This document shows positions 5,090 to 33,290 of a stretch of DNA of 33,290 nucleotides, piece by piece; position 1 is the first letter of the stretch, and each line of letters begins with the position of its first letter. The notes below the pieces were generated by a model. It saw nothing but the letters and a program-made list of their open reading frames with translations. It was not told the DNA's origin and made no database searches. Location: positions 1 through 33,290 of the forward strand of contig JAPLRU010000039.1 in the NCBI GenBank assembly GCA_026399025.1, in the 5' to 3' direction. The DNA comes from Methylobacter sp. GTDB taxonomy: Bacteria; Pseudomonadota; Gammaproteobacteria; Methylococcales; Methylomonadaceae. The translations under genes were made by a program, and so were the position numbers.

Positions 5090-5560
5090 TTATTTTAACC
5101 ACTTGGCTTTTTTAGGATCGCCGTTATAAATGTCCCGAATCCAGGACATAATCTTCAGCATTTCATCGGTTGATAAGTTGACGTATTGCGGCCCCATCAT
5201 GCCGTTAGCGCCGCCGAACAGCACTTCGAACAAGCCCTTGTCAGTCGCATTGGCCGGATAGGTCCAGTAATCGTCGGCCAGTCCGGGCCCCAATTTACCT
5301 TCGGCTTCGTGGCCGTGGCAGCCGGAGCAGGCGGTCAAATAAAGATCATGACCTTTTTGTATGGCTTCCTTATCGCCGTTGTAAGGATTTTTTCCGGTTT
5401 CCTTGAATTGATTGAAAACAGCCTCGTTACCGCCCGATTTGGCGACGCTCATATCCAGCGGCGCGCCGGTAATCGCGTTACGAAAGGTTATTTCCGCTAC
5501 AGCCGCAGTGCTGATCAACGCAGTGCTGACAGCCGCTACGGCGAATAATTTTTTCTTCAT
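5090..5560 (-). CDS. mxaG: MxaG, cytochrome cL, electron acceptor of methanol dehydrogenase
   Basis: A 156-residue secreted c-type cytochrome. The signal peptide ends about residue 22 (STAAVA). One haem attachment site is present, CSGCH (Cys78, Cys81, His82); the axial methionine is probably in GGANGMMGPQY (Met121/122). Cytochrome cL takes electrons directly from PQQ methanol dehydrogenase and passes them to a cytochrome cH and on to the oxidase. The position between mxaJ (20 nt upstream) and mxaI (15 nt downstream) is the canonical one. It is rather short for the family; the haem motif and the DDYWTYP region are conserved. Confidence 0.93.
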   Translation of the reverse strand: MKKKLFAVAAVSTALISTAAVAEITFRNAITGAPLDMSVAKSGGNEAVFNQFKETGKNPYNGDKEAIQKGHDLYLTACSGCHGHEAEGKLGPGLADDYWTYPANATDKGLFEVLFGGANGMMGPQYVNLSTDEMLKIMSWIRDIYNGDPKKAKWLK

Positions 5561-5580
5561 ATTAAGATCTCTATTTAGGG

Positions 5581-6420
5581 TTACGGCGCATCGGGTTCAT
5601 CGACTAAAGGAATGCCTTCCTCTTCCAGCAACTCGGTTATGTCATCTTGGTTGTCTTCAATAACCTTGTTCAACTGAGCCAGTAAGGTTGGATCGTTTTT
5701 TCGAACGCCCATCGATGTGCTGTAATGAAAGTCGACTTTTTGCCCGTCGGCGCGAACGTTGTCGTCGGGAATCATCGTCATCGTTAACGGCGTTGCCGAT
5801 GCTTTGACATAACGCGCGGCGGACGGCCCCCAAAGCGCGGCCACTTCGGCATGACCTGATGACACTTCGGAAACCAGTTTCGAGGACTCGTATTTCACAT
5901 ACTGATTACGCCTGGATTTAAAGCCGACCAGCTCCTGCGAATAATTGAACATATCGTTATAACGTCCGATAGTCCGCAGCATGACTTCCGGCGGCGTGCC
6001 GGGCACAAAAGCGATGAGTTTTACTTTGCGTAACGCCTCGCTAGACCAATTGTCCAAAACCAGATTATCGGCCTCACGCGAGATGAAGACGTAACCGGAA
6101 CGGTAATAAGGCCGAGTGGTTAAAACGCTCGGATCGCCTTTATCGACGCCGAGCACCACATCGCACAGTTCCTTATACAAAGTGTCCCGTATGTAATAAC
6201 GCGGATCGTTCCAGAACACATATTCGACTTTTTTGCCCAGCGCTTTGCCGACCAATTCCGCCAATTTATTCTCGAAGCCTTCGCCTGCCTTGTTGGAATA
6301 AGGCATTTCGTTTTCCGCCGCGCAGACTTTTAGCGCTTTGTTTTGTTCGGCTTGGGCTGGGGCTATTGCCAAACTGCCGCCCAAACACAAAGCCGTTATT
6401 AAAAACTTGTTTATGTGCAT
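5581..6420 (-). CDS. mxaJ: MxaJ, periplasmic binding-protein-like accessory protein
   Basis: A 279-residue periplasmic protein with a signal peptide (FLITALCLGGSLAIAPAQA) and the fold signature of extracellular solute-binding family 3 (KVCAAENEMPYSNKAGEGFE at the mature start). MxaJ is needed for methanol dehydrogenase assembly and is encoded between mxaF and mxaG in all known mxa operons. I place the start at 6420 (MHINKF), 7 nt after GAGAG; an in-frame ATG at 6459 would add 13 residues in front of a normal signal peptide. A palindromic repeat separates it from mxaF (214 nt gap). Confidence 0.92.
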   Translation of the reverse strand: MHINKFLITALCLGGSLAIAPAQAEQNKALKVCAAENEMPYSNKAGEGFENKLAELVGKALGKKVEYVFWNDPRYYIRDTLYKELCDVVLGVDKGDPSVLTTRPYYRSGYVFISREADNLVLDNWSSEALRKVKLIAFVPGTPPEVMLRTIGRYNDMFNYSQELVGFKSRRNQYVKYESSKLVSEVSSGHAEVAALWGPSAARYVKASATPLTMTMIPDDNVRADGQKVDFHYSTSMGVRKNDPTLLAQLNKVIEDNQDDITELLEEEGIPLVDEPDAP

Positions 6421-6506
6421 ATTTACTCTCGTCAATGCCGGTTTAAAAACGGATGTCACTGTAGGGATGGTTTTAGCCAGAAACTGTTAACTTAAGCAGA
6501 GTAAAG

Positions 6507-6593
6507 CCCTCTCCAGAGGGAGAGGGTTGGGTGAGGGGAAATCAAAATATTATTTGAATCCCCTCATCCCAGCCTTCTCCCTGAGGGAGAAGG
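6507..6593. repeat. Palindromic repeat between mxaF and mxaJ
   Basis: The arms are 6507-6540 (CCCTCTCCAGAGGGAGAGGG plus GTGAGGGGA) and 6559-6593 (TCCCCTCATCCC plus TTCTCCCTGAGGGAGAAGG). They are inverted imperfect copies around an AT-rich centre, and each arm also contains a smaller hairpin of its own. It belongs to the CCCTC-rich intergenic repeat type seen in many proteobacteria. It lies just after the most strongly expressed gene of the operon and could stabilise the mxaF mRNA 3' end or partly terminate transcription. Confidence 0.85.
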
Positions 6594-6634
6594 AGCGTGC
6601 TCCTAAGCGGCTAAAGCTCCTTCTACACGCAGTT

Positions 6635-8449
6635 TTAATAACCCAATGCAAAAACCATCACACCGCCACCTTGTTGCGTGTAGTGAGCCAGTTCTTTAAA
6701 CGCACCGACTGCACCCAAACCTGCGGTAGGATCCTGCAAGTCGAACACTAAACCAACGCCGGGCCAGCCGCCGACACCGTAGTAAATCGCCACATATTGC
6801 TTGCCTTTATGTCCGAAGGTAATCGGGTGACCGATAACGCCGGAAGGCAGTTTGAATTTCCACAATTCCTTGCCGTTCCGTGAATCCAGCGCTTTGATGT
6901 AACCATCTAAAGTACCGTAGAACACCAAGTCGCCCGCGGTTGCGGTGGTGCCGCCCCAGACTGCGAATTTTTCCTTGATTTCCCATTCGAATTTGCCGGT
7001 TACGGAGTTCATCGCTTTCACTTGGCCCAAGGTGCCTTTAGGTCCCGGATACATGTTCAGCGTCGCGCCGACAAAGAACTGGCCTGCGCGGTAAGGCAGC
7101 ATGAACGGTTCCCAGTCCATGCAGATATGGTTGGTGCCCATGAAGAACAGCTTTTTGTTCGGATCGTAAGATTCGATACCCTGGTTGTGATAACCCATTG
7201 CTGACGGACAAATGCCTTTGGCTTCATGATCCATGTGCGTGGAAAACTCAGGATCGCGAACCGGCAGGCCGGTTTTTAAATCGACTTTTTTAACCCAGTT
7301 GACGGTATCGTCGATTTTAAACGCGTTGACCAAATCGCCGTTTTCACGGTTTAGCGTATAAACCAAGCCGTTACGGTCGGGGTGGGTTAGCAATTTGGTC
7401 ATTTTGCCGTCAACCAGCTGCTCGGATAAGCCCATATAGTTGACGCCTGCGTAATCCCATTCGTCATGCGGCGTTTTTTGATAACCGAATTTGGCTTCGC
7501 CGGTATTGATGTCGCGGCCCCAGATAGTCATCGTCCATTTGTTGTCGCCGGGGCGCATGGTTTCATTCCACGGCGCGGGGTTGCCCGAGCCGTAATAGAG
7601 CATATCCAGGTCAGGGTCGAATGCATACCAGCCCCAGTTGGTGCCGCCGCCGATTTTCCAGGCATCGCCTTCCCAGGTTTTCAGACCCAGGCCGAATTGG
7701 CCGTAATGCGGGTTGGCGCTGTTAAAATCCTTGGCCAGTTTGATGTCGGCGTCAGGGCCGGTCGCGTAAACGCGCCAAGCTTGTTTGCCGTCTTTGATGT
7801 TATAGGCGGTGGCATAACCTCTTACGCCCAATTCCGCGCCCGAGCTGCCGACGATAACTTTATCTTTAGCGACAAAAGGCGCGACAGTCAGCGTGGAGCC
7901 CATCGCGATGTCGGAGTTTTCCATTTTCCACAACAACTCGCCGGTTTTCGCATTTAACGCAACGATATGTCCGTCCAGTTGATTCTGGAAAATAGTGGCC
8001 GGATAACCGTCACCGGCAGGCGCATAGGCCAAGCCCCGGTTTACTACGTCGCAACAGGCGACTGCGCGGGCTGCCGGGTTTTGTTTAGGTTTGAATTCCC
8101 ATAAAATTTTGCCGGGATCGTCCAGGTCGATCGCGAAAATGTTGTTAGGGAAGGGCGTATGCACATACATGATGCCGTCAATGACCAGCGGTCCGCCTTC
8201 ATGCCCGTTCAGCACGCCCGTCGAAAACGACCAGACCGGCTGTAGATGCTGGACGTTGTGCGCGTTAATCTGGGTCATTTCGCTAAAGTGGGTTGCACCG
8301 TAGTCTTTGGTCTGCATGACCCAGTTAGTATCTTCTTTCGATAGCCTATCCAGGGTTTTATTGGCGTGCGTCGGCATCGAAACCGTCAATAAAGCGCCGC
8401 TACAGACAGCGGATGCGACAGCGGTGCGGGTGAATTTGGAAATCCGCAT
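6635..8449 (-). CDS. mxaF: MxaF, PQQ- and Ca-dependent methanol dehydrogenase large subunit
   Basis: A 604-residue precursor; it oxidises methanol to formaldehyde in the periplasm using PQQ. A 29-residue signal peptide (SMPTHA) leaves a mature chain beginning NKTLDRL. With that cleavage the known active-site residues fall at their classical mature numbers: Glu177 (GAELGVRG), Asn261 (GSGNPAPWN) and Asp303 (WDYAGVN). The adjacent-cysteine disulfide is Cys132-Cys133 (precursor). The residue two after Asp303 is Ala, where lanthanide-dependent XoxF enzymes have a second Asp, so this is the calcium type. Repeated tryptophan-docking blades run through the chain, as expected for an eight-bladed propeller. 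The start has a strong GGAGG site. Confidence 0.98.
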
Positions 8450-16404: not shown

Positions 16405-19400
16405 CTACAGCTCGAAACTATACTCAAACCCTGCCCAATAGGCGCGGGGCGCGCCCGGCCCGATTAAGGTGCTGCTGAGCCAATCGTTGGAATTGTAATT
16501 CCAGCCGCTGCTGCCGATGGCGCCTTTTTCGGACGGAGAAAAAGGATTAATCCCGAGCCGCCCGGCGGTGGCGTATTGGTTGTCGAACACATTGTTGATC
16601 ATGCCGAAAACCGAGAGTTCCTTGGTGACCGCATAACGGGTTTTTAAATTGAACAGCGCGTAACCCGGCACGCTGCCCGAGTCAGTGAATTGACGGCCCT
16701 GAATGCGAACGACTTCGGTGCCGGTGCTGTTGGGGCGTTCGACATAGTCGTAAGCGCCTTGCGTATGGTCGTTGTTTTCGTTGCCGCGCACAAACGACGA
16801 CGAATGAGCGGTCATGCTGACGCCAAAATCCCATTTGTTGGTGAGATGCAGGTTTACCGATGCGTTGATGTTGTGCAGCGGTATGCCCGGCATACGGTCG
16901 CCGGGGTCGATTTGAATCATGTCTTTCATCGCTGTCAAAGGCCGCCCTGCGGCATCGTACTCCGCTTCCAACGGCGAGCTGACCGCGGCGCTGCTGTTGT
17001 GAGGACTCAACATGAACAAACGCGACTGGAAAGTCGCTTCGGTGTAGCCGTAATTAACGCGAAAATCCGCTATCCCGGCTTTGCCGGAAAAGCCGAATTC
17101 AATGCCCTGCCTGCGGGTGTCGCCGATGGTATCGAAAAAACTCCGGGTGGCGGTGATGCCGACCAGATAAATATCGTCGCGAAGATCGGTTCTATACAAA
17201 CCGGCATTCCATTCCCAGTCGCCGAAGATTTTGTCGCGGAGCCCGACTTCGTATGAGTCGGCAAAGATTTGCGGCAAATAAGGATCGCCCGACAGGGAAG
17301 TCGGCAAAGTGCAGGCGCCGCCGATGGAAGCAAAGCTTTTGGGAATCTTCGGCGAATCGGGATCGCCCGGATTCTGCTCGACCAGAGTGTTGTCGTAAGC
17401 GCAGCCCAGCTCTACGCTTGACGGTGTTCGAGTGCCTTGACTCCAGTTGAAAAACACATTGATGTCCTTGAGCGGTGCATTGAGCTGTGTAAACGGCAAA
17501 TAACTGATCCCGACCGACGGGTTGAACGACTGGTAATTGAATTGCTCCGAGGTCGGCGTTTCGCTGTAGCTGCCCAAACCGTAATAGGGATTCTGGGACT
17601 GCAAAACATCCTTATACCAATTGGCGGCCAAATTATAATTGGCCGCAGCCGGACAAGACGCCGGGTCTCGGCTTTGGCAGACAATGACGGTCGGACGATA
17701 AGCGTTGAGATCGAGAATGTCGTGCAGATTTTCAAAACCGGCGCGGGTTCTGGCTTTAAGCTTATTGTTGACGTCTGTATGGTTATAGCGCCCGGAAACG
17801 CTCAAGTGCAGATTATCCCAAGGCGAAAAGGTTTCGCTGAAATAGCCGCTGAGAGTCGTCGATTTGCCGGTAAACGAGTTGTTGTGAATATCTTCACGGG
17901 CGGCGACAAAGATCGGATCGATGCCGGCCGGGTCGCTGTAAACCCGATGGGACGCGTCCATCAAGCCCAGGCGTTGGCTGGTGTCGAATGTCGAATCGGA
18001 GGAATCGATAGAGCTGCCCAGCATGAATTTATGTTGTTCGCTGTTCCAGTTGAGCTGGAGCGAAGCGCCGTCGGTCATTTGCTCAACCAAGGTATTGCTC
18101 AGCACGCCAATCGGCGTGCCGTCGGCCCAGCCGGTTGACGATAGGCCGGGCGTCTGGTTTTTGGGATCTCCGGCGGCACCGTTACGCGGCCCGGAAGCAG
18201 GGCTGACCGGAGTGTAGTTGATCCGGTCGCAATTAACATTAATAGGCGGCGCCAGCGCGACATAATCTTTATTACGCGCATTCAAAGGCTTATTGAGGGT
18301 GCCGGCGTCAATAACGCCGTCGAAATTTCGATCCAAACCATAATCCGGAATGCCGTCTTTATTGGCATCCCGATAGCGGCAGACACGCTGCCCGGTTCGG
18401 GTGCCGTTGGCTTGCAGCGGATTTTCCCAGCCGCTGTCCATGTCCTGGAAATCCTCGTAGATATCGCCGGTTAACGATTTTCGGTTGCTGTTACGGCGAT
18501 AAATCTGTCCGGTCAGGCTTAAGCTGTCGGTAAAGAAAAGTTCCCCGCCCAGACTGTATTGCTGTAGATCGTTTTCGGTGCTGTCCGGCGAGCTGAACAC
18601 GGCTTCCGGGCTTTGCCGGTACAGTTCGGTAGGAATCAGGCCGTTACCCAGCAGTGTATTGCCGACCAGCAGCGCACTGGCTTTTAGCGAAAATTTATCT
18701 TCCCGCCAATCGAAGCGGGTAAAGCCTTGCTTGACTTGCGACGGCGAATTATCGCGCCAGCCCGCTTCATCGAAGCCGGTGAGCGCCAGAAAACCGCCCA
18801 GCGTACCGTTATTCCAGCCGGCGGCTAATTCGCCTTTTTTACGTTCCCAGGAACCGCCCTGAAAACCGACGGTAACGCCGGCATCGTCGAAGCCGTTTTT
18901 AGTTCGCATGGACAAAGCGCCGCCCAAGGTGTTGAGTCCGAACAGCGGATTGGAGCCGGGAAAAACATCCATGCCCGACAAGGCGTTCATCGGGATTAAA
19001 TCCCAGTTCACGATATCGCCAAACGGCTCGTTGACCCTGACGCCATCCAGGAAGACTGACAAGCCTTGCGGCGTGCCGATTTGAGGCGATGCGGAAAAAC
19101 CGCGATAACTGATGTCCATCTGAAACGGATTGCCTTGATAGTCGTTGACATTCACCGATTGCAAGCGGTTATTCATCAAATCGCCGAGACTGGTTGCCAA
19201 CGAATCCTTGATGTCCTGACGGGTGACGGACTGTATGTTGCCGGGGATTTGTTCTTTGCTCAGCTGGAGGCCTTCCCAAGGACCGAGTTTGACGCGCTCG
19301 GCCTGGCCTTCTACCACGATGTCTTCCAGTTCCAGGGGGGCGGAATCGGGAGCGTCGGCAAAACAAGGACGGGGCGGGGCATAGAGCGAAACTATCAGTA

Positions 19401-19449
19401 GAAATGCAGAGCGCGCGCGGAACAGCACAGGGGAGGGGATCAGTGACAT
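16405..19449 (-). CDS. TonB-dependent outer membrane receptor
   Basis: A 1014-residue outer membrane receptor. A signal peptide (residues 1-31) is followed by a TonB-box-like segment (LEDIVVEG), a plug domain (about 70-190; ISYRGFSASP, GLSVFLDGVRVNEPFGD, NPLFGLNTLGGALSM) and a 22-strand-type beta barrel ending in YSFEL. There is no N-terminal signalling (STN) domain and no sigma/anti-sigma pair beside it. The barrel portion holds a cysteine-containing insert with two EF-hand-like loops (DANKDGIPD and DRNFDGVID, residues 361-381), unusual for this class. The substrate is unknown. The neighbouring methanol dehydrogenase genes make a metal substrate thinkable, since TonB receptors import lanthanides or copper chelates in methanotrophs, but no motif proves it. 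Confidence 0.93.
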   Translation of the reverse strand: MSLIPSPVLFRARSAFLLIVSLYAPPRPCFADAPDSAPLELEDIVVEGQAERVKLGPWEGLQLSKEQIPGNIQSVTRQDIKDSLATSLGDLMNNRLQSVNVNDYQGNPFQMDISYRGFSASPQIGTPQGLSVFLDGVRVNEPFGDIVNWDLIPMNALSGMDVFPGSNPLFGLNTLGGALSMRTKNGFDDAGVTVGFQGGSWERKKGELAAGWNNGTLGGFLALTGFDEAGWRDNSPSQVKQGFTRFDWREDKFSLKASALLVGNTLLGNGLIPTELYRQSPEAVFSSPDSTENDLQQYSLGGELFFTDSLSLTGQIYRRNSNRKSLTGDIYEDFQDMDSGWENPLQANGTRTGQRVCRYRDANKDGIPDYGLDRNFDGVIDAGTLNKPLNARNKDYVALAPPINVNCDRINYTPVSPASGPRNGAAGDPKNQTPGLSSTGWADGTPIGVLSNTLVEQMTDGASLQLNWNSEQHKFMLGSSIDSSDSTFDTSQRLGLMDASHRVYSDPAGIDPIFVAAREDIHNNSFTGKSTTLSGYFSETFSPWDNLHLSVSGRYNHTDVNNKLKARTRAGFENLHDILDLNAYRPTVIVCQSRDPASCPAAANYNLAANWYKDVLQSQNPYYGLGSYSETPTSEQFNYQSFNPSVGISYLPFTQLNAPLKDINVFFNWSQGTRTPSSVELGCAYDNTLVEQNPGDPDSPKIPKSFASIGGACTLPTSLSGDPYLPQIFADSYEVGLRDKIFGDWEWNAGLYRTDLRDDIYLVGITATRSFFDTIGDTRRQGIEFGFSGKAGIADFRVNYGYTEATFQSRLFMLSPHNSSAAVSSPLEAEYDAAGRPLTAMKDMIQIDPGDRMPGIPLHNINASVNLHLTNKWDFGVSMTAHSSSFVRGNENNDHTQGAYDYVERPNSTGTEVVRIQGRQFTDSGSVPGYALFNLKTRYAVTKELSVFGMINNVFDNQYATAGRLGINPFSPSEKGAIGSSGWNYNSNDWLSSTLIGPGAPRAYWAGFEYSFEL

Positions 19450-28201: not shown

Positions 28202-30346
28202 ATGATCGATCTTGCCATCATTTTGCTCTCTTACTCCGGCGTTAGGTTTTATGAAAAACGCAAAAAAAACAAAGCGCTAAAGGAGATTCAAAAAGCGGCT
28301 AAAGATCAGAGCATCGTCCCGTCGGCAGACGAATCCACGCTGACCCAAAAAGAACGGCAGCATCAAAATAATATAATGAGCGGCGTCACCCTGGGTACCG
28401 CGACATTACGCCTGTTAAGCCCCGCCCCGGTATTTGCGCTGCTTAACATCGCCTCTTATACCTACACCATGTTTCCCTTCTTTCGCCAAGTCGAGACCGC
28501 GGTAAAACAGCGGCTGATTAAAGAGCATAAAGTCGACAGTTATTTACTGATGGGGCTTGGCAATTTGCTGCTGTTGGGGACGGGGCGTTATTTTATCGCC
28601 GCCCTGGGTTTGGGCTTGGCTTATATCAGCGAAAATATTATTACTAAAGCAACAGACACGGCGCAACAAAACCTTCACGATAAGCTCTTTGACCAATTGT
28701 TCGATCCCAACCAAAAAGTCTGGATTAGCCAGGACGGCGCGGAGTTGGAAGTTGCGCTGGAATATGTCCAACAAGGCGATATTTTGATCGTAAGGGCGGG
28801 CGAATCCATTCCTGTCGACGGCGTGGTGGTTGAGGGCATGGCCAGTGTCGATCAACATGCGTTTACCGGCGAATCTTATCCTGTCGAAAAAGGCGTCGGC
28901 GAAGCCGTTTTTGCATCAACCTTGATGCTGACCGGTAAGCTTCTGGTTCAGGTTGAAAAGTCCGGGCGGGATACCGCCATCGGCAAATTGAGCGATATTT
29001 TAGATCAGGCCTTCCAGGGTAAAACACAACTGCAATTGCGCGGCGAACAATGGGCGGAAGCGGCTAACCTGCCTTTTCTGGCGTTGGCCGGCGCCGGTTT
29101 TGTTTTCTTCGGCCCGACAGGCGCAATGGTGATTCTTGGCGGCAATACCGTCCAGGCGATTCGCTTGCTGGCGCCCTTAGCCACCATCAACTATCAGGCG
29201 GTCGCGTCCTCCGAACATATTTTGCTTAAACAAGGCCAACGCCTCGAACAAATCAGCAGTATCGATACCTTGTTGTTCGACAAAACCGGGACATTGACCG
29301 ACGGCGCATTGAATGTCAGCGCTATTCATGTGGTTCATACTGACTTTCAGCAAGCCGATGTCCTGTTTTACGCCGCCTTGGCCGAACACCAATTGACCCA
29401 CCCCATTGCAAAGGCGATTATGCAACATGCCGCGCTGGCCGGTTTGGACGTCAACAATCTCGATGACATTGAATACCGCCAGGGCTTTGGCATTGTGGTG
29501 CAATATAAGGCCCACACTATTCACGTCGGCAGCGCCCGCTTTATGGTCGCGGAAGGCGTTGCCATTCCCGATTCGGCGCAAGTTTTACAGACGGCCATCC
29601 ATCAGCAAGGCCATTCCCTGGTGATGGTTGCGATTGATTCGGCCGTTGCAGGCCTTATTGAATTGCAGGCGACGTTACGGCCCGAAGTACAAGCGGTTTT
29701 TAACAGTCTCAGAGAACACGGCATCAAACATATCGGCATCGTTTCCGGCGACCATATGGCCCCCACCCAAAAATTAGCCGAACAGCTGAAGGTTGACAGC
29801 TTCTTCGCCGAAGTGTTGCCTGAAGATAAGGCCGATATTGTTAAACAGTTCCAAGCCGAAGGCCGCAGTGTGTGTTTTATTGGCGACGGCGTCAACGACA
29901 CCATTGCCATGCGTCAGGCCGATTTGTCCGTTTCCTTGCGAGGCGCGACTACATTGGCAATCGATGTGGCCGATATTATCCTGACTAATTCCGACCTTAA
30001 CAGCCTCTGCGAGCTGATGGTGCTGTCCGAAAAACTGGAAAATAATCTTAAACGCGGGCTTTGGATTTGCTACACCGGTATGGGTATTGTTCTTGGCGGT
30101 ACCGTATTCGGGAGTATTGGCGTTCTTACCGCTTTGGGCGTACATTTCGTGTTAGGTTCCGGGGCTATCGGCAATGCTATGTTACCTCTGCTGGAAATTA
30201 ACAAAGACAATGCGGGAGACATAGCGGAAAACGGTGACGTCGACACCCTAACTACCGCCTCCGGACCGGTCGTTCAAGCCTATGACGACTCTGACCAGTT
30301 ATCCGCCGCCACTACAAAAATACCAAAATATCCCACAGCCGCTTAG
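28202..30346 (+). CDS. Atypical P1B-like P-type ATPase without CPC motif
   Basis: A 714-residue membrane ATPase with the order of a heavy-metal P1B pump: actuator TGES (222-225), phosphorylation site DKTGT (Asp360), the HP dipeptide of the nucleotide domain (His400-Pro401), and hinge GDGVND (561-566). There is no N-terminal metal-binding (HMA) domain; residues 1-58 are one hydrophobic segment plus a lysine-rich stretch. The membrane motif that is CPC, SPC or similar in true metal pumps reads RLLAPLATINYQA (about 321-333), without Cys. A 45-residue acidic tail (IAENGDVDTLTT, YDDSDQ) is added. The transported substrate is therefore uncertain. It is 3 nt from the next gene. No good ribosome binding site precedes the ATG. 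Confidence 0.88.
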   Translation: MIDLAIILLSYSGVRFYEKRKKNKALKEIQKAAKDQSIVPSADESTLTQKERQHQNNIMSGVTLGTATLRLLSPAPVFALLNIASYTYTMFPFFRQVETAVKQRLIKEHKVDSYLLMGLGNLLLLGTGRYFIAALGLGLAYISENIITKATDTAQQNLHDKLFDQLFDPNQKVWISQDGAELEVALEYVQQGDILIVRAGESIPVDGVVVEGMASVDQHAFTGESYPVEKGVGEAVFASTLMLTGKLLVQVEKSGRDTAIGKLSDILDQAFQGKTQLQLRGEQWAEAANLPFLALAGAGFVFFGPTGAMVILGGNTVQAIRLLAPLATINYQAVASSEHILLKQGQRLEQISSIDTLLFDKTGTLTDGALNVSAIHVVHTDFQQADVLFYAALAEHQLTHPIAKAIMQHAALAGLDVNNLDDIEYRQGFGIVVQYKAHTIHVGSARFMVAEGVAIPDSAQVLQTAIHQQGHSLVMVAIDSAVAGLIELQATLRPEVQAVFNSLREHGIKHIGIVSGDHMAPTQKLAEQLKVDSFFAEVLPEDKADIVKQFQAEGRSVCFIGDGVNDTIAMRQADLSVSLRGATTLAIDVADIILTNSDLNSLCELMVLSEKLENNLKRGLWICYTGMGIVLGGTVFGSIGVLTALGVHFVLGSGAIGNAMLPLLEINKDNAGDIAENGDVDTLTTASGPVVQAYDDSDQLSAATTKIPKYPTAA

Positions 30347-30349
30347 CTT

Positions 30350-31498
30350 ATGTCAGCATTATCTCCCGCACTCGTTATCGCAGGTGCCGGCGCTACAGGG
30401 CTTGCCTGTGCGCTGGCCGCCGCCCGGCAAAACATCCCGGTGCTGTTGCTGGAACAATCGGCGCAGCTCGGCGGCACCGTAACCGGGGCCTTGATTCATA
30501 CCTTAGGCGGTTTTTTTGATGACCGGGGCGACATCCTTAACCCCGGCCTGTCGGCGGAACTGATTGATCGACTGGTTGAAGCGAGCCCTTTTAGCTGCAA
30601 GCGGCGCATCGGCAAAACTTGGGTCTTAAACGTAGACCCTGCTATTTATCAACAGGTTATTAGCGATTGGCTGAACGAGTATCCCTCTATTAAGGTCTGT
30701 TACCAAACCCGTATTAACCATGTAGCGATTAATGCCTCGCGTATTGATGCGGTAACGGTGACCTGCAACGGGCAATCCCGTAAGCTCAATACGCTTGCCG
30801 TCATTGATGCGACAGGACGGGCCGACATTGTGCGCAGTATCGATTCGCGCTTGGTCACTGAGGGGTCGGCGTTAGCGGGACTGATCGTGCAATTGGGCGG
30901 TATTAGCCCCGGCGCATTGGACTTCCCCAAAGGCCTCGCGTTATTACGGCATATTCGAAAGGCAGCCGAAAACCATGAACTACCTCCGGAATGCGCGACC
31001 TTATGGCTGGATAGCGGCGTTCATCCGGAAGAAATTTATCTGAAATTTAATTTGTCGGCAAAAAGTTACGACCGCGAGCATATGATCGCCGTGACCCAGC
31101 AACTGTTAGCCTTTATTCAGGCATGGCCGGGTTTTGCCAAGGCCTTCGTCCGTTGCCATAGTCAGTTGGGTATTCGCGACGAGGGGCGCGTACACGGCGA
31201 TTACACGCTCACCGAAGCCGATCTCAAACAAGGCCGACACTTTGACGATGCCGTATGCCGCGCCGCTTGGCCGATTGAATATTGGCATCCGGAACACGGG
31301 GTCAGCCTTGATTACTTGCCTACCGGCCACAGCTACGAAATCCCCTTAAGTGCGCTCAAAGTCGGCGGCTTAACTAATTTTTTTGTGGCCGGAAAATGTT
31401 TTTCAGCGGAACCGCGCGCCCAAGCTTCGGCACGAGTGGTCGGAAGTTGCTGGGCAATGGGGGAAGGTTTGGTTAACGCACACTTTGGGGACTCTTAA
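30350..31498 (+). CDS. FAD-dependent oxidoreductase
   Basis: A 382-residue flavoprotein. The dinucleotide-binding motif is at the N-terminus (VIAGAGATGLACALAAA, GxGxxG at 12-17), followed by LLLEQSAQLGG. A second FAD contact appears as VIDATGRADIV (about 145), and the C-terminal FVAGKCFSAEPRAQASARVVG is typical of the FAD_oxidored/GR2-like class. It lacks the WxWxIP signature of flavin halogenases. The substrate is not known; its place before an acyl ligase and a carrier protein suggests it oxidises a carrier-bound or ligase-related substrate. It starts 3 nt after the ATPase stop and ends 1 nt before the ligase start. Confidence 0.85.
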   Translation: MSALSPALVIAGAGATGLACALAAARQNIPVLLLEQSAQLGGTVTGALIHTLGGFFDDRGDILNPGLSAELIDRLVEASPFSCKRRIGKTWVLNVDPAIYQQVISDWLNEYPSIKVCYQTRINHVAINASRIDAVTVTCNGQSRKLNTLAVIDATGRADIVRSIDSRLVTEGSALAGLIVQLGGISPGALDFPKGLALLRHIRKAAENHELPPECATLWLDSGVHPEEIYLKFNLSAKSYDREHMIAVTQQLLAFIQAWPGFAKAFVRCHSQLGIRDEGRVHGDYTLTEADLKQGRHFDDAVCRAAWPIEYWHPEHGVSLDYLPTGHSYEIPLSALKVGGLTNFFVAGKCFSAEPRAQASARVVGSCWAMGEGLVNAHFGDS

Positions 31499-31499
31499 A

Positions 31500-32978
31500 A
31501 TGACACTGAATTTGTCTGGAATTTTCTTTAAACAAGCGGCTTTAACGCCGGAACATCCCGCAATTCTGGGGCCGCATGAACACAGCTCAGTCAGCTACGG
31601 AGCCTTGCGAGAAGAAATTCAAACCCTGGCGAAACACTTACTCGCCGCAGGCATCCATCCCGGCATGAATATCGGCCTGCACTATCCCGGCGGTCACGCT
31701 TACATTGCCTTTACCTACGCACTGTGGGCCTGTGGGGCGTGTGTTACGCCGATTCCGATGGAGCTGGCAACGGAAGAAAAACAACTTATTTTCCGGCATA
31801 TTGCTATTGACGCCGTTATTTCTACGGCTAACTGTACGCTGTTTGCCGCATTTACTGTAGGTGAAGCAACAGCGTTAACGGAACAAGCCTGCTTACTGAA
31901 TCTTAAAGCCTTACGCACGCCACCCATAGAGTTGGCCGGATTGAATCCGGCGTTCATCCGTTTTACCTCGGGCACCACGGGCGAGGCCAAAGGCGTGATC
32001 CTTTCCCATGACAGCATCTTTGCCCGCATCCAGGCCGCCAATCAAGGTTTGCACATCAATGCCAATGACCGTATCGTTTGGCTGTTATCCATGGCCTATC
32101 ATTTTGCGGTGTCCATCGTCGCTTACCTTAGCTTTGGCGCCACCATCATTTTATGTAAGAACAGTTTCGGCAGCACGATTTTGCAGGCGGCCAACCGTTA
32201 TCAAGCGACGCTGATTTATGCGGCGCCCACGCATTACGAATTAATGAGCCACGACCGCAGCGAGCAAACATTATCAAGTTTACGCCTGGCTATCGTGACC
32301 ACCGCTTACCTTCGTCCCGACATTAGCGAGGCTTTTTATCAGCGCTTCGGCATCGCGCCCAATGAGACTTACGGCATTATTGAAGTGGGCCTGCCTGCGG
32401 TAAACCTTGATGCGCCTAAACAGAAACGGGGTTCCGTCGGTAAATTATTGCCCAGCTACAGTGTCAAACTGGACACGCCCGATGAAAACGGCATCGGCGA
32501 AATTATGCTCCGGGGGCCGGGATTATTAGACGCTTATTACCAGCCCTGGCAAGCGCGCGATGTTATCCTCAACCAGCACGGCGGTTGGTTGGCGACCGGC
32601 GATTTGGGCTTCATTGATGAGGACGGCTATCTGTTCATTGTCGGTCGCAGTAAAGAAATGATCAGCGTGGCCGGCATGAAATTTTTTATCCGGGAAGTCG
32701 AAACGGTGCTGGAACGTCATCCGGCTATCCAGGCCGCCTGCGTATTTGCCGTTAAATCGCGCCGCTTAGGCGAAACGCCGATGGCCCATGTCGTGGCGGC
32801 CGATAACCACGAGCCGCCCGATGAGGATCAACTCAAAAAATACTGCGCCGAACATTTGGCCGCTTACAAAATCCCCGACCGGTTTCACTGGGTCGATAGC
32901 TTGGCGCGCACCGCCAGCGGCAAATTGATCCGCAATACCGATAAATTATTGACCACTCAAAAGACAAAAATACTATGA
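31500..32978 (+). CDS. AMP-forming acyl/aryl acid ligase (adenylation enzyme)
   Basis: A 492-residue member of the ANL superfamily, starting at MTLNLSG one nucleotide after the preceding stop; the frame is open upstream inside the FAD gene but that part is out of context. Core motifs: A3 FTSGTTGEAKG (155-165), A5 YGIIE (291-295), A7 TGDLG (366-370), A8 hinge VGRSKEMISVAGMKFF (381-396) and the catalytic A10 lysine Lys475 (TASGKLIR). It should activate a carboxylic acid with ATP and load it on a thiol, most simply on the carrier protein encoded next, which overlaps it by 4 nt. The acid cannot be read with confidence; the replaced Asp of A4 (HFAVSIVAY region) does not suggest an alpha-amino acid. 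Confidence 0.9.
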   Translation: MTLNLSGIFFKQAALTPEHPAILGPHEHSSVSYGALREEIQTLAKHLLAAGIHPGMNIGLHYPGGHAYIAFTYALWACGACVTPIPMELATEEKQLIFRHIAIDAVISTANCTLFAAFTVGEATALTEQACLLNLKALRTPPIELAGLNPAFIRFTSGTTGEAKGVILSHDSIFARIQAANQGLHINANDRIVWLLSMAYHFAVSIVAYLSFGATIILCKNSFGSTILQAANRYQATLIYAAPTHYELMSHDRSEQTLSSLRLAIVTTAYLRPDISEAFYQRFGIAPNETYGIIEVGLPAVNLDAPKQKRGSVGKLLPSYSVKLDTPDENGIGEIMLRGPGLLDAYYQPWQARDVILNQHGGWLATGDLGFIDEDGYLFIVGRSKEMISVAGMKFFIREVETVLERHPAIQAACVFAVKSRRLGETPMAHVVAADNHEPPDEDQLKKYCAEHLAAYKIPDRFHWVDSLARTASGKLIRNTDKLLTTQKTKIL

Positions 32979-33226
32979 ACCTAGCACAGCGCCTACGCGA
33001 ACACATTTTTAACCACTACATTAAAGACAACGAGCCTGAGGGGTTTAATGACGATTACAACCTGATCGATGAAGGCATCCTCGATTCTTTGGCGGTCATG
33101 AACTTGATTACCTGGCTGGAAAAGCATTATTCGATCGAGTTTGACGAAGGCGACATCGTGTTGGAAAACTTTAGTTCCGTGAATGCTTTGCTCGATTTTG
33201 TACAACACAAACGGGCGGTTAGCTAA
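32975..33226 (+). CDS. Acyl carrier protein
   Basis: An 83-residue acidic four-helix carrier protein. The phosphopantetheine attachment Ser38 lies in EGILDSLAVMNLITWLE, the conserved DSL motif at the start of helix II. The remaining helices (LEKHYSIEFDEGDIVLENF and SVNALLDFVQHKR) fit the family. It starts inside the stop of the ligase gene (ATGA overlap), a strong sign that the two proteins work as a pair. No phosphopantetheinyl transferase, condensation enzyme or thioesterase is visible in the window. It is the last gene; 46 nt later a repeat begins, so it may close the operon. Confidence 0.92.
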   Translation: MNLAQRLREHIFNHYIKDNEPEGFNDDYNLIDEGILDSLAVMNLITWLEKHYSIEFDEGDIVLENFSSVNALLDFVQHKRAVS

Positions 33227-33271
33227 GTCCGCTGTAACTTCTTATTAGCCGCAAGCGCTTAAAATGCTTTA

Positions 33272-33290
33272 TTCACCACGAAGGCACGAA
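33272..33290. repeat. Partial copy of the CACGAAG palindromic repeat at the window edge
   Basis: TTCACCACGAAGGCACGAA matches the outer arm of the repeats at 3288-3316 and 27656-27685 with one base different (GGC for GAC). It is cut by the end of the window, so the second arm is not seen. Confidence 0.7.

Follow-up and report, generated by a model that had tools for sequence, protein, structure and literature searches.

A tight four-gene operon at a Methylobacter contig end as the almost certain head of a hybrid nonribosomal peptide synthetase-polyketide synthase cluster

What do four tightly packed genes at the very end of a Methylobacter contig make, and why does an ATPase stand at their head? 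The stretch considered here, referred to as the window, is contig JAPLRU010000039.1 of Methylobacter sp. (assembly GCA_026399025.1; 33,290 nt), and its last genes encode a P-type ATPase, a flavoenzyme, an acyl ligase and a carrier protein. A reading made from the sequence alone (the sequence-only reading) had named this operon the window's best candidate for an undescribed pathway. Based on comparison with related genomes, the operon is almost certainly the head of a hybrid nonribosomal peptide synthetase-polyketide synthase (NRPS-PKS) cluster, and the candidate pathway is the part of such an assembly line where loading takes place. The explanation as a whole, which places the four genes at the 5' end of the cluster and has ligase and carrier load the starter, the flavoenzyme modify it and the ATPase serve export, is in our view likely. 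The genes lie in one run on the plus strand (28202-33226), and the spacing given by the sequence-only reading agrees with the coordinates of the open reading frames (ORFs):

28202..30346, plus strand: P1B-like P-type ATPase, 714 aa; Pfam E1-E2_ATPase plus Hydrolase; member of a clade that lacks Cys at the CPC site
30350..31498, plus strand: flavin adenine dinucleotide (FAD)-dependent oxidoreductase, 382 aa; gap 3 nt; Pfam FAD_oxidored (PF12831); GR2/PHBH-like flavoprotein fold
31500..32978, plus strand: ANL acid:carrier (or acid:CoA) ligase of the acyl/aryl-acid type, 492 aa; gap 1 nt; AMP-binding plus AMP-binding_C
32975..33226, plus strand: free-standing carrier protein, 83 aa; PP-binding; phosphopantetheine serine in DSL; 4-nt overlap with the ligase
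33227..33290, plus strand: contig end; a dispersed repeat has one of its arms in the final ~19 nt

For the ligase, the ATG at 31500 was taken as the start; the ORF list gives a longer, TTG-started frame from 31383.

The window is an entire contig (C63) of a 5.2 Mb draft genome in 138 contigs and ends 64 nt past the stop codon of the carrier gene. As it stops at a contig end, downstream absences cannot be read from it. The statement that condensation enzyme and thioesterase are absent thus proved to be an artefact: the copies that can be read to the end contain an NRPS starting with a condensation (C) domain, followed by a PKS-NRPS ending in a thioesterase (TE) domain. We therefore reject a stand-alone four-gene pathway, whose chance we put close to nil; nothing else follows the four genes within the window, but three relatives continue unbroken into the NRPS, which refutes this idea in those genomes.

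As a check, the sequence-only reading had proposed a search for conserved gene order among methanotrophs, and the order does recur: it is no product of chance, and lack of conservation, one of the two refutations which that reading had listed, does not apply. Within a sample of 151 genomes of the family, a close homologue of the ATPase (80-100%) was detected in four, namely the window's own genome, Candidatus Methylobacter oryzae KRF1 (G001), G003 and G525; as the latter belongs to another genus, the four span two genera. All four show the order ATPase, FAD protein, ligase, carrier. A contig scan with the FAD protein returned four loci, two from Methylobacter (one of them KRF1, G001:C88), one from Thiothrix and one from Phycisphaerae. 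The ligase was present in 3 of 23 genomes of the genus (E <= 1e-60) and the FAD protein in 2 of 369 genomes of a class sample, the own genome being included in both counts. Upstream of the ATPase, each of the four genomes has other recognisable genes: pirin in the window, a TIM-barrel isomerase-like and a 3-hydroxyisobutyrate-dehydrogenase-like gene in KRF1, a 1115-aa protein in G003 and an IS240-type transposase fragment in G525. For this reason, the cluster seems to begin at the ATPase, which seems to be its first gene. That the ATPase is part of the set, as had been supposed, is in line with its position at the head of the cluster in 4/4 genomes despite these differing surroundings.

In three of the four genomes, an NRPS beginning with a C domain lies on the same contig as the carrier gene. 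It starts 310 nt after the carrier in KRF1, 216 nt after it in G003, where the NRPS runs off the contig, and, with a conserved start, about 185 nt after it in G525. The own genome holds an orthologous start near the head of another contig (C105:218; 80% over the first C domain), and the other 11 matches of this own-genome search reached 39% or less. According to Pfam, the own NRPS (C105:212-7297, 2361 aa) is organised as C-A-T-C-A-T; the NRPS of KRF1 (3352 aa) and that of G525 comprise three C-A-T modules by motif. The tail after the last T domain has about 190 aa in KRF1, and no Pfam match was found in the tail of the own protein. Going by the usual substrate positions and codes of adenylation domains, the last NRPS module is predicted to be Thr-like and the module embedded in the PKS Gly-like. 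The residues of the first module vary by genome (acidic in KRF1 and G525, hydrophobic in the own genome); on the same code, the acidic residues suggest that the first module of KRF1 and G525 takes a basic amino acid, a prediction for these two genomes.

A second megasynthase was the best match in 4/4 genomes (87-100% over the first 790 aa). In KRF1 it is the next gene on the same contig, and in G003 and G525 it comes immediately behind the tail of the NRPS. Its domain order in G525 is KS-DH-KR-T-C-A-T-KS-AT-KR-T-TE by Pfam, and motifs give the same order in KRF1. Domains were assigned by Pfam in the own NRPS and in the second megasynthase of G525 and by motif in the other copies read; the second megasynthase of G003 lay outside the scan. 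C, A, T, KS, AT, T and TE domains thus stand beside tailoring genes, as in an NRPS-PKS hybrid. KRF1 has the whole cluster on one contig; in G003, G525 and the own genome it is spread over more than one. The phosphopantetheinyl transferase expected of such a cluster is represented by two PF01648 matches in the own genome, one of them about 2.4 kb from a further ATPase of the Cys-less clade on contig C96. A glycosyltransferase gene (GT28 by Pfam) overlaps the end of the second megasynthase in G525, and a putative glycosyltransferase gene with the same start does so in G003; no glycosyltransferase gene follows the second megasynthase in KRF1. Behind these two genes, G525 also shows a further NRPS gene start that on reading resembles the first one (L208:14372-16000).

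The breaks in the own genome coincide with a dispersed repeat. Tail bases of the window match 14 other places in that genome (E <= 0.001), and the repeat recurs in opposite orientation at about bases 50-100 of C105, the NRPS contig. Its arms (TTCACCACGAAGG... / ...CCTTCGTGGTGAA) stand at broken contig ends, in the window at 33272-33290 and at the head of C105 (L029:50-100). Within the own NRPS (L029, C105), an in-frame stretch beginning TKPSPEGEGWV (aa about 2141-2225) has no counterpart at that place in KRF1 and G525. The same peptide ends contig C65 (end of L206), and the repeat element therefore seems to sit inside coding sequence.

What would this line be loaded with? The ligase aligns with acyl and aryl ligases. 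At the position of D235 in amino-acid-activating A domains, the Asp that binds the substrate amino group, it has His, as do its aligned relatives, and the catalytic C-terminal Lys is present. This combination, no Asp at 235 with the Lys retained, is that of an acid-type ligase, and the His points to a carboxylic acid substrate without need of an amino group. An amino-acid-activating ligase of the PltF/PigI type was rejected on account of this His, although the carrier resembles PigG and PltL. The carrier finds these two and other free carriers in the PDB; its family matches (OlsHI ACP, AmcB, AsbD and DltC families) are all below cut-off. The idea that a ligase and a free carrier form a loading module is thus borne out by the His at the D235 position and the DSL site. 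We consider it very probable that the two proteins provide the first C domain with an acyl starter.

The flavoenzyme shows GxGxxG and the other invariant positions; in a PDB sequence search it gave a weak match to thioredoxin reductase (E 0.0025). A match to PF04820 (Trp_halogenase) was not found at E 0.001, and the WxWxI motif of flavin-dependent halogenases is absent on reading. We consider it somewhat more probable than not that this enzyme acts on the acyl group of the loading module. In G216, the genes of the FAD protein (45%) and the ligase (51%) adjoin at two loci, and a carrier-like ORF there (L058:15709-15957) had no Pfam match at 1e-4. In Thiothrix, the FAD protein (58%) is followed by a ligase, recognised by reading the ORF, a carrier (PP-binding) and a halogenase-like flavoprotein. 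This Thiothrix stretch (L010:9081-19921), with a DUF3865 protein, the FAD-ligase-carrier cassette, the halogenase-like flavoprotein, a sulfotransferase and PLP and GNAT enzymes, is a separate, biosynthetic-looking cluster. An ORF with DKTGT, a catalytic motif of the window ATPase, was not present in the fetched G216 and Thiothrix stretches around the cassette. Due to these pairs, flavoenzyme and ligase look like a portable acyl cassette that is independent of the ATPase.

The same pairs are what speaks for the ATPase as a bystander at the cluster edge, with only FAD protein, ligase and carrier serving the NRPS-PKS. Against this stand the spacing of 1-3 nt to the FAD gene, the retention of the ATPase in all four genomes next to differing upstream genes, and the repeated occurrence of its clade near NRPS, PKS and ligase genes; we regard a bystander as quite improbable.

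Taking the operon as the head of the NRPS-PKS cluster, the following order of events can be proposed. Its observed elements are the order of genes and of domains, the class of the ligase, the lack of the cysteines and the bias in gene neighbourhoods; the starter, the step of the flavoenzyme and the substrate of the ATPase are inferred. The ANL ligase would activate a carboxylic acid, not an amino acid, and load it onto the free carrier, and the flavoenzyme would oxidise the acid before or after loading. From the carrier, the acyl group would go to the NRPS by way of its first condensation domain, and the NRPS would then add two (window genome) or three (KRF1, G525) amino acids, the last probably Thr. 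The second megasynthase would contribute two ketide units with one residue, probably Gly, between them and release the product, to which the glycosyltransferase may attach a sugar in G003 and G525. Transport through the inner membrane, serving export or protection of the producer itself, would most likely be the part of the ATPase, with the product or an organic precursor as its cargo. On its own, this last assignment, drawn from residues and gene neighbourhoods, has in our estimate a little less than an even chance.

The ATPase itself presents an unusual combination of features. The catalytic motifs TGES, DKTGT and GDGxND are intact, and it scores above the cut-off of TIGR01525 (heavy-metal subfamily) and below those of the copper and cadmium subfamilies. 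The structural model has the P1B fold; taking 113-126 and 130-166 together as a single helix, eight long helices lie beyond its soluble domains. It is closest to CopA and ZntA, which are Cu and Zn pumps (PDB 4bbj, 7r0g, 4umw). The P1B metal site is missing: the CPC position before DKTGT reads LAPLA (APL), the only three Cys of the protein (558, 603 and 623) are not near it, and no N-terminal metal-binding domain was matched in Pfam.

This absence bears on a further explanation, according to which the cluster makes a metal-binding lipopeptide, perhaps a copper chelator for the methanotroph, and the ATPase is a cooperating metal pump. Its score above TIGR01525 and its likeness to Cu and Zn pumps speak for this, as does the mycobacterial P1B ATPase gene ctpB, which PMC7924339 describes as induced together with the acyl-ligase/NRPS operon nrp. 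However, both cysteines of the CPC site are missing, the remaining three are distant from it, and the score lies under the cadmium and copper subfamily cut-offs. In addition, the greedy ORF list of KRF1 (>= 90 aa), which covers G001:C88 2190-30028 and not the rest of the genome, shows nothing as large as an isonitrile synthase from the ATPase to the PKS; besides ATPase, FAD protein, ligase, NRPS and PKS that stretch holds only a 93-aa ORF antisense to the carrier. Kin of the ATPase adjoin EgtD-type, norspermidine-type and ComA-type genes, which to our knowledge are not metallophore genes. The same paper (PMC7924339) also reports ctpB as no different between strains in copper-poor medium. Taken together, a metal-binding lipopeptide with its own pump is improbable, and the same grade applies to the ATPase being a metal pump at all.

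Is the loss of the metal site peculiar to this protein? TIGR01525 matches in 18 methanotroph genomes split into a group of >= 460 bits and one of <= 446 bits. CPC or TPC was found in 39/39 ATPases of the former, and Cys at this site in 0/61 members of the Cys-less clade, some of which carry a Cys several residues before it in the same region. The groups are named by the CPC motif, and the motif split coincides with the score gap. The 61 members consist of 41 rows from the 18 genomes (< 450 bits, above the family cut-off) and 20 from class genomes (18 non-own matches and two chance finds); at E <= 1e-95, relatives of the ATPase occur in 9/369 class genomes including the own one. The 40 controls are the 39 canonical ATPases from the same genomes plus one chance find in G240. 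The survey leaves aside five rows below the family cut-off, a partial row of unknown group (G507:C110) and two fragments without DKTGT (L064, L146). A single FastTree tree (98 sequences) parts the clade from the 39 canonical pumps by an edge whose support is 1.0.

The clade also differs in its gene neighbourhoods. A KS, C, ANL or carrier ORF lies within 8 kb of 23/61 clade members and 0/40 canonical pumps (KS or C alone: 16/61), a single-gene contrast whose Fisher P of 1.2e-6 overstates independence. Within the 18 genomes, 18/41 clade members have a marker nearby, or 14/37 without the cluster's own four copies. Markers were found by phmmer and HMMs built from the domains of the own cluster, a procedure that missed at least one likely PKS fragment (L061) and included a 733-aa protein (L078) that may be a housekeeping acyltransferase/acyl-ACP synthetase. 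EgtD-type methyltransferases were detected by phmmer within 4 kb of 6/61 clade ATPases and 0/40 controls, four of them being confirmed by Pfam.

Several individual neighbourhoods deserve mention. EgtD-family methyltransferases stand beside Cys-less ATPases in L062 (together with EgtB), L068, L161 and L165, carboxynorspermidine decarboxylase/synthase genes in L077 and L158, and, in methanotrophs, ComA-like genes (phosphosulfolactate synthase family) in L065, L067 and L070, of which L067 was checked by Pfam. An adenylosuccinate-synthetase homologue is also among the neighbours, and NspC-like and L074-type membrane ORFs occur near one control pump each as well. Long KS runs, that is very large PKS clusters, carry a Cys-less ATPase at one edge in G000 C79 (about 22071-82838) and G001 C93 (about 147152-208622).

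From these neighbourhoods it could be speculated that a P1B-like clade lost its metal site and turned to pumping or flipping small organic molecules, with every paralogue dedicated to the adjoining pathway: NRPS-PKS here, ergothioneine/hercynine-, norspermidine- and sulfolactate-type pathways elsewhere. We hold this generalisation to be rather unlikely. Several of the neighbouring genes would make amines or betaines; if this is true, the clade would be to organic cations in bacteria what the P5B ATPases are to polyamines, which they move.

A number of observations weigh against the explanation of the locus favoured here. In the own genome, the join C63-C105-C65 is deduced from relatives and repeat arms, and contig C65 stops short of the last T domain and the TE domain of the second megasynthase. 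The flavoenzyme model has a pLDDT of 75 and a GR2-type fold that many GR2 flavoproteins match about equally in Foldseek, with TM values < 0.5 among the matches listed. The FAD-ligase(-carrier) cassette occurs elsewhere without a window-type ATPase. For the ATPase, simple hydropathy scanning picks up only some of the model helices (115-148, 285-326, 629-663). Clustered at 65% identity, the neighbourhood contrast shrinks to 16/44 versus 0/7 (Fisher P 0.058), because the canonical pumps are few and conserved. Finally, 38/61 clade ATPases have no marker within 8 kb, some of them near contig or stretch ends, and some adjoin genes without obvious biosynthetic role.

Elsewhere in the window, a PQQ dehydrogenase, a 292-aa ORF and a cytochrome c gene on the minus strand (5090-8449) are consistent with a methanol dehydrogenase locus. 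A TonB-dependent receptor gene (16405-19449, minus strand) lies about 9 kb upstream of the operon; such a gene was not seen in the KRF1 cluster stretch.

As the line is traceable on one contig of KRF1, its product can be sought. The ATPases of the clade resemble metal pumps and score above the heavy-metal cut-off of NCBI, yet they have no metal site and are commoner near natural-product genes than the canonical pumps of this comparison. Should organic metabolites be what they move, the label "heavy metal ATPase" would be wrong for many genes in such genomes, and a new class of natural-product exporters would become testable.

How does the operon compare with known systems? An open-access literature search, mostly at title level, returned no description of the gene set or of P-type ATPases in such clusters. 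The consulted part of PMC10654040 describes P1B pumps as metal exporters and leaves the Cys-less clade unmentioned, and a methanotroph survey treats NRPS-like clusters by class, the word "atpase" being absent from its main text (PMC11964084). The window ATPase shares with P1B metal ATPases such as CopA and ZntA the fold, the order of the long model helices and the motifs of the A, P and N domains; unlike them, it has neither a CPC/SPC-type site nor a Pfam match to an N-terminal metal-binding domain.

Oxidation of a carrier-bound group by a flavoenzyme is a known theme, and the prolyl/aryl loading modules (PigG, PltL) likewise use a small free carrier. Their flavoenzyme is of the acyl-CoA-dehydrogenase type, whereas that of the window belongs to FAD_oxidored (PF12831) and the window ligase lacks the amino-group-binding Asp. 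The mycobacterial isonitrile lipopeptide operon (rv0096/0097-rv0101) reportedly also has a carrier. It is further alike in its acyl ligase, its NRPS and a nearby, co-induced gene of a P1B-family ATPase (ctpB; PMC7924339); in the window the ATPase lies inside the operon and is without the Cys site, and the cluster here includes PKS modules.

The closest counterparts are NRPS-PKS hybrids in which an ANL ligase acts with a free carrier to load the acyl starter in trans, as in the lipopeptide systems with a fatty acyl-AMP ligase (FAAL) or acyl-ACP ligase. Membership of a known pathway, which the sequence-only reading had listed as a refutation, hence applies only at the level of this class, and no description of the exact set came up in the mostly title-level literature search. 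The window operon differs from these counterparts by its flavoenzyme and its Cys-less P-type ATPase, and by a MenE/4CL-like ligase of 492 aa. It agrees with them in ligase, free carrier, C-starting NRPS, PKS modules and terminal TE.

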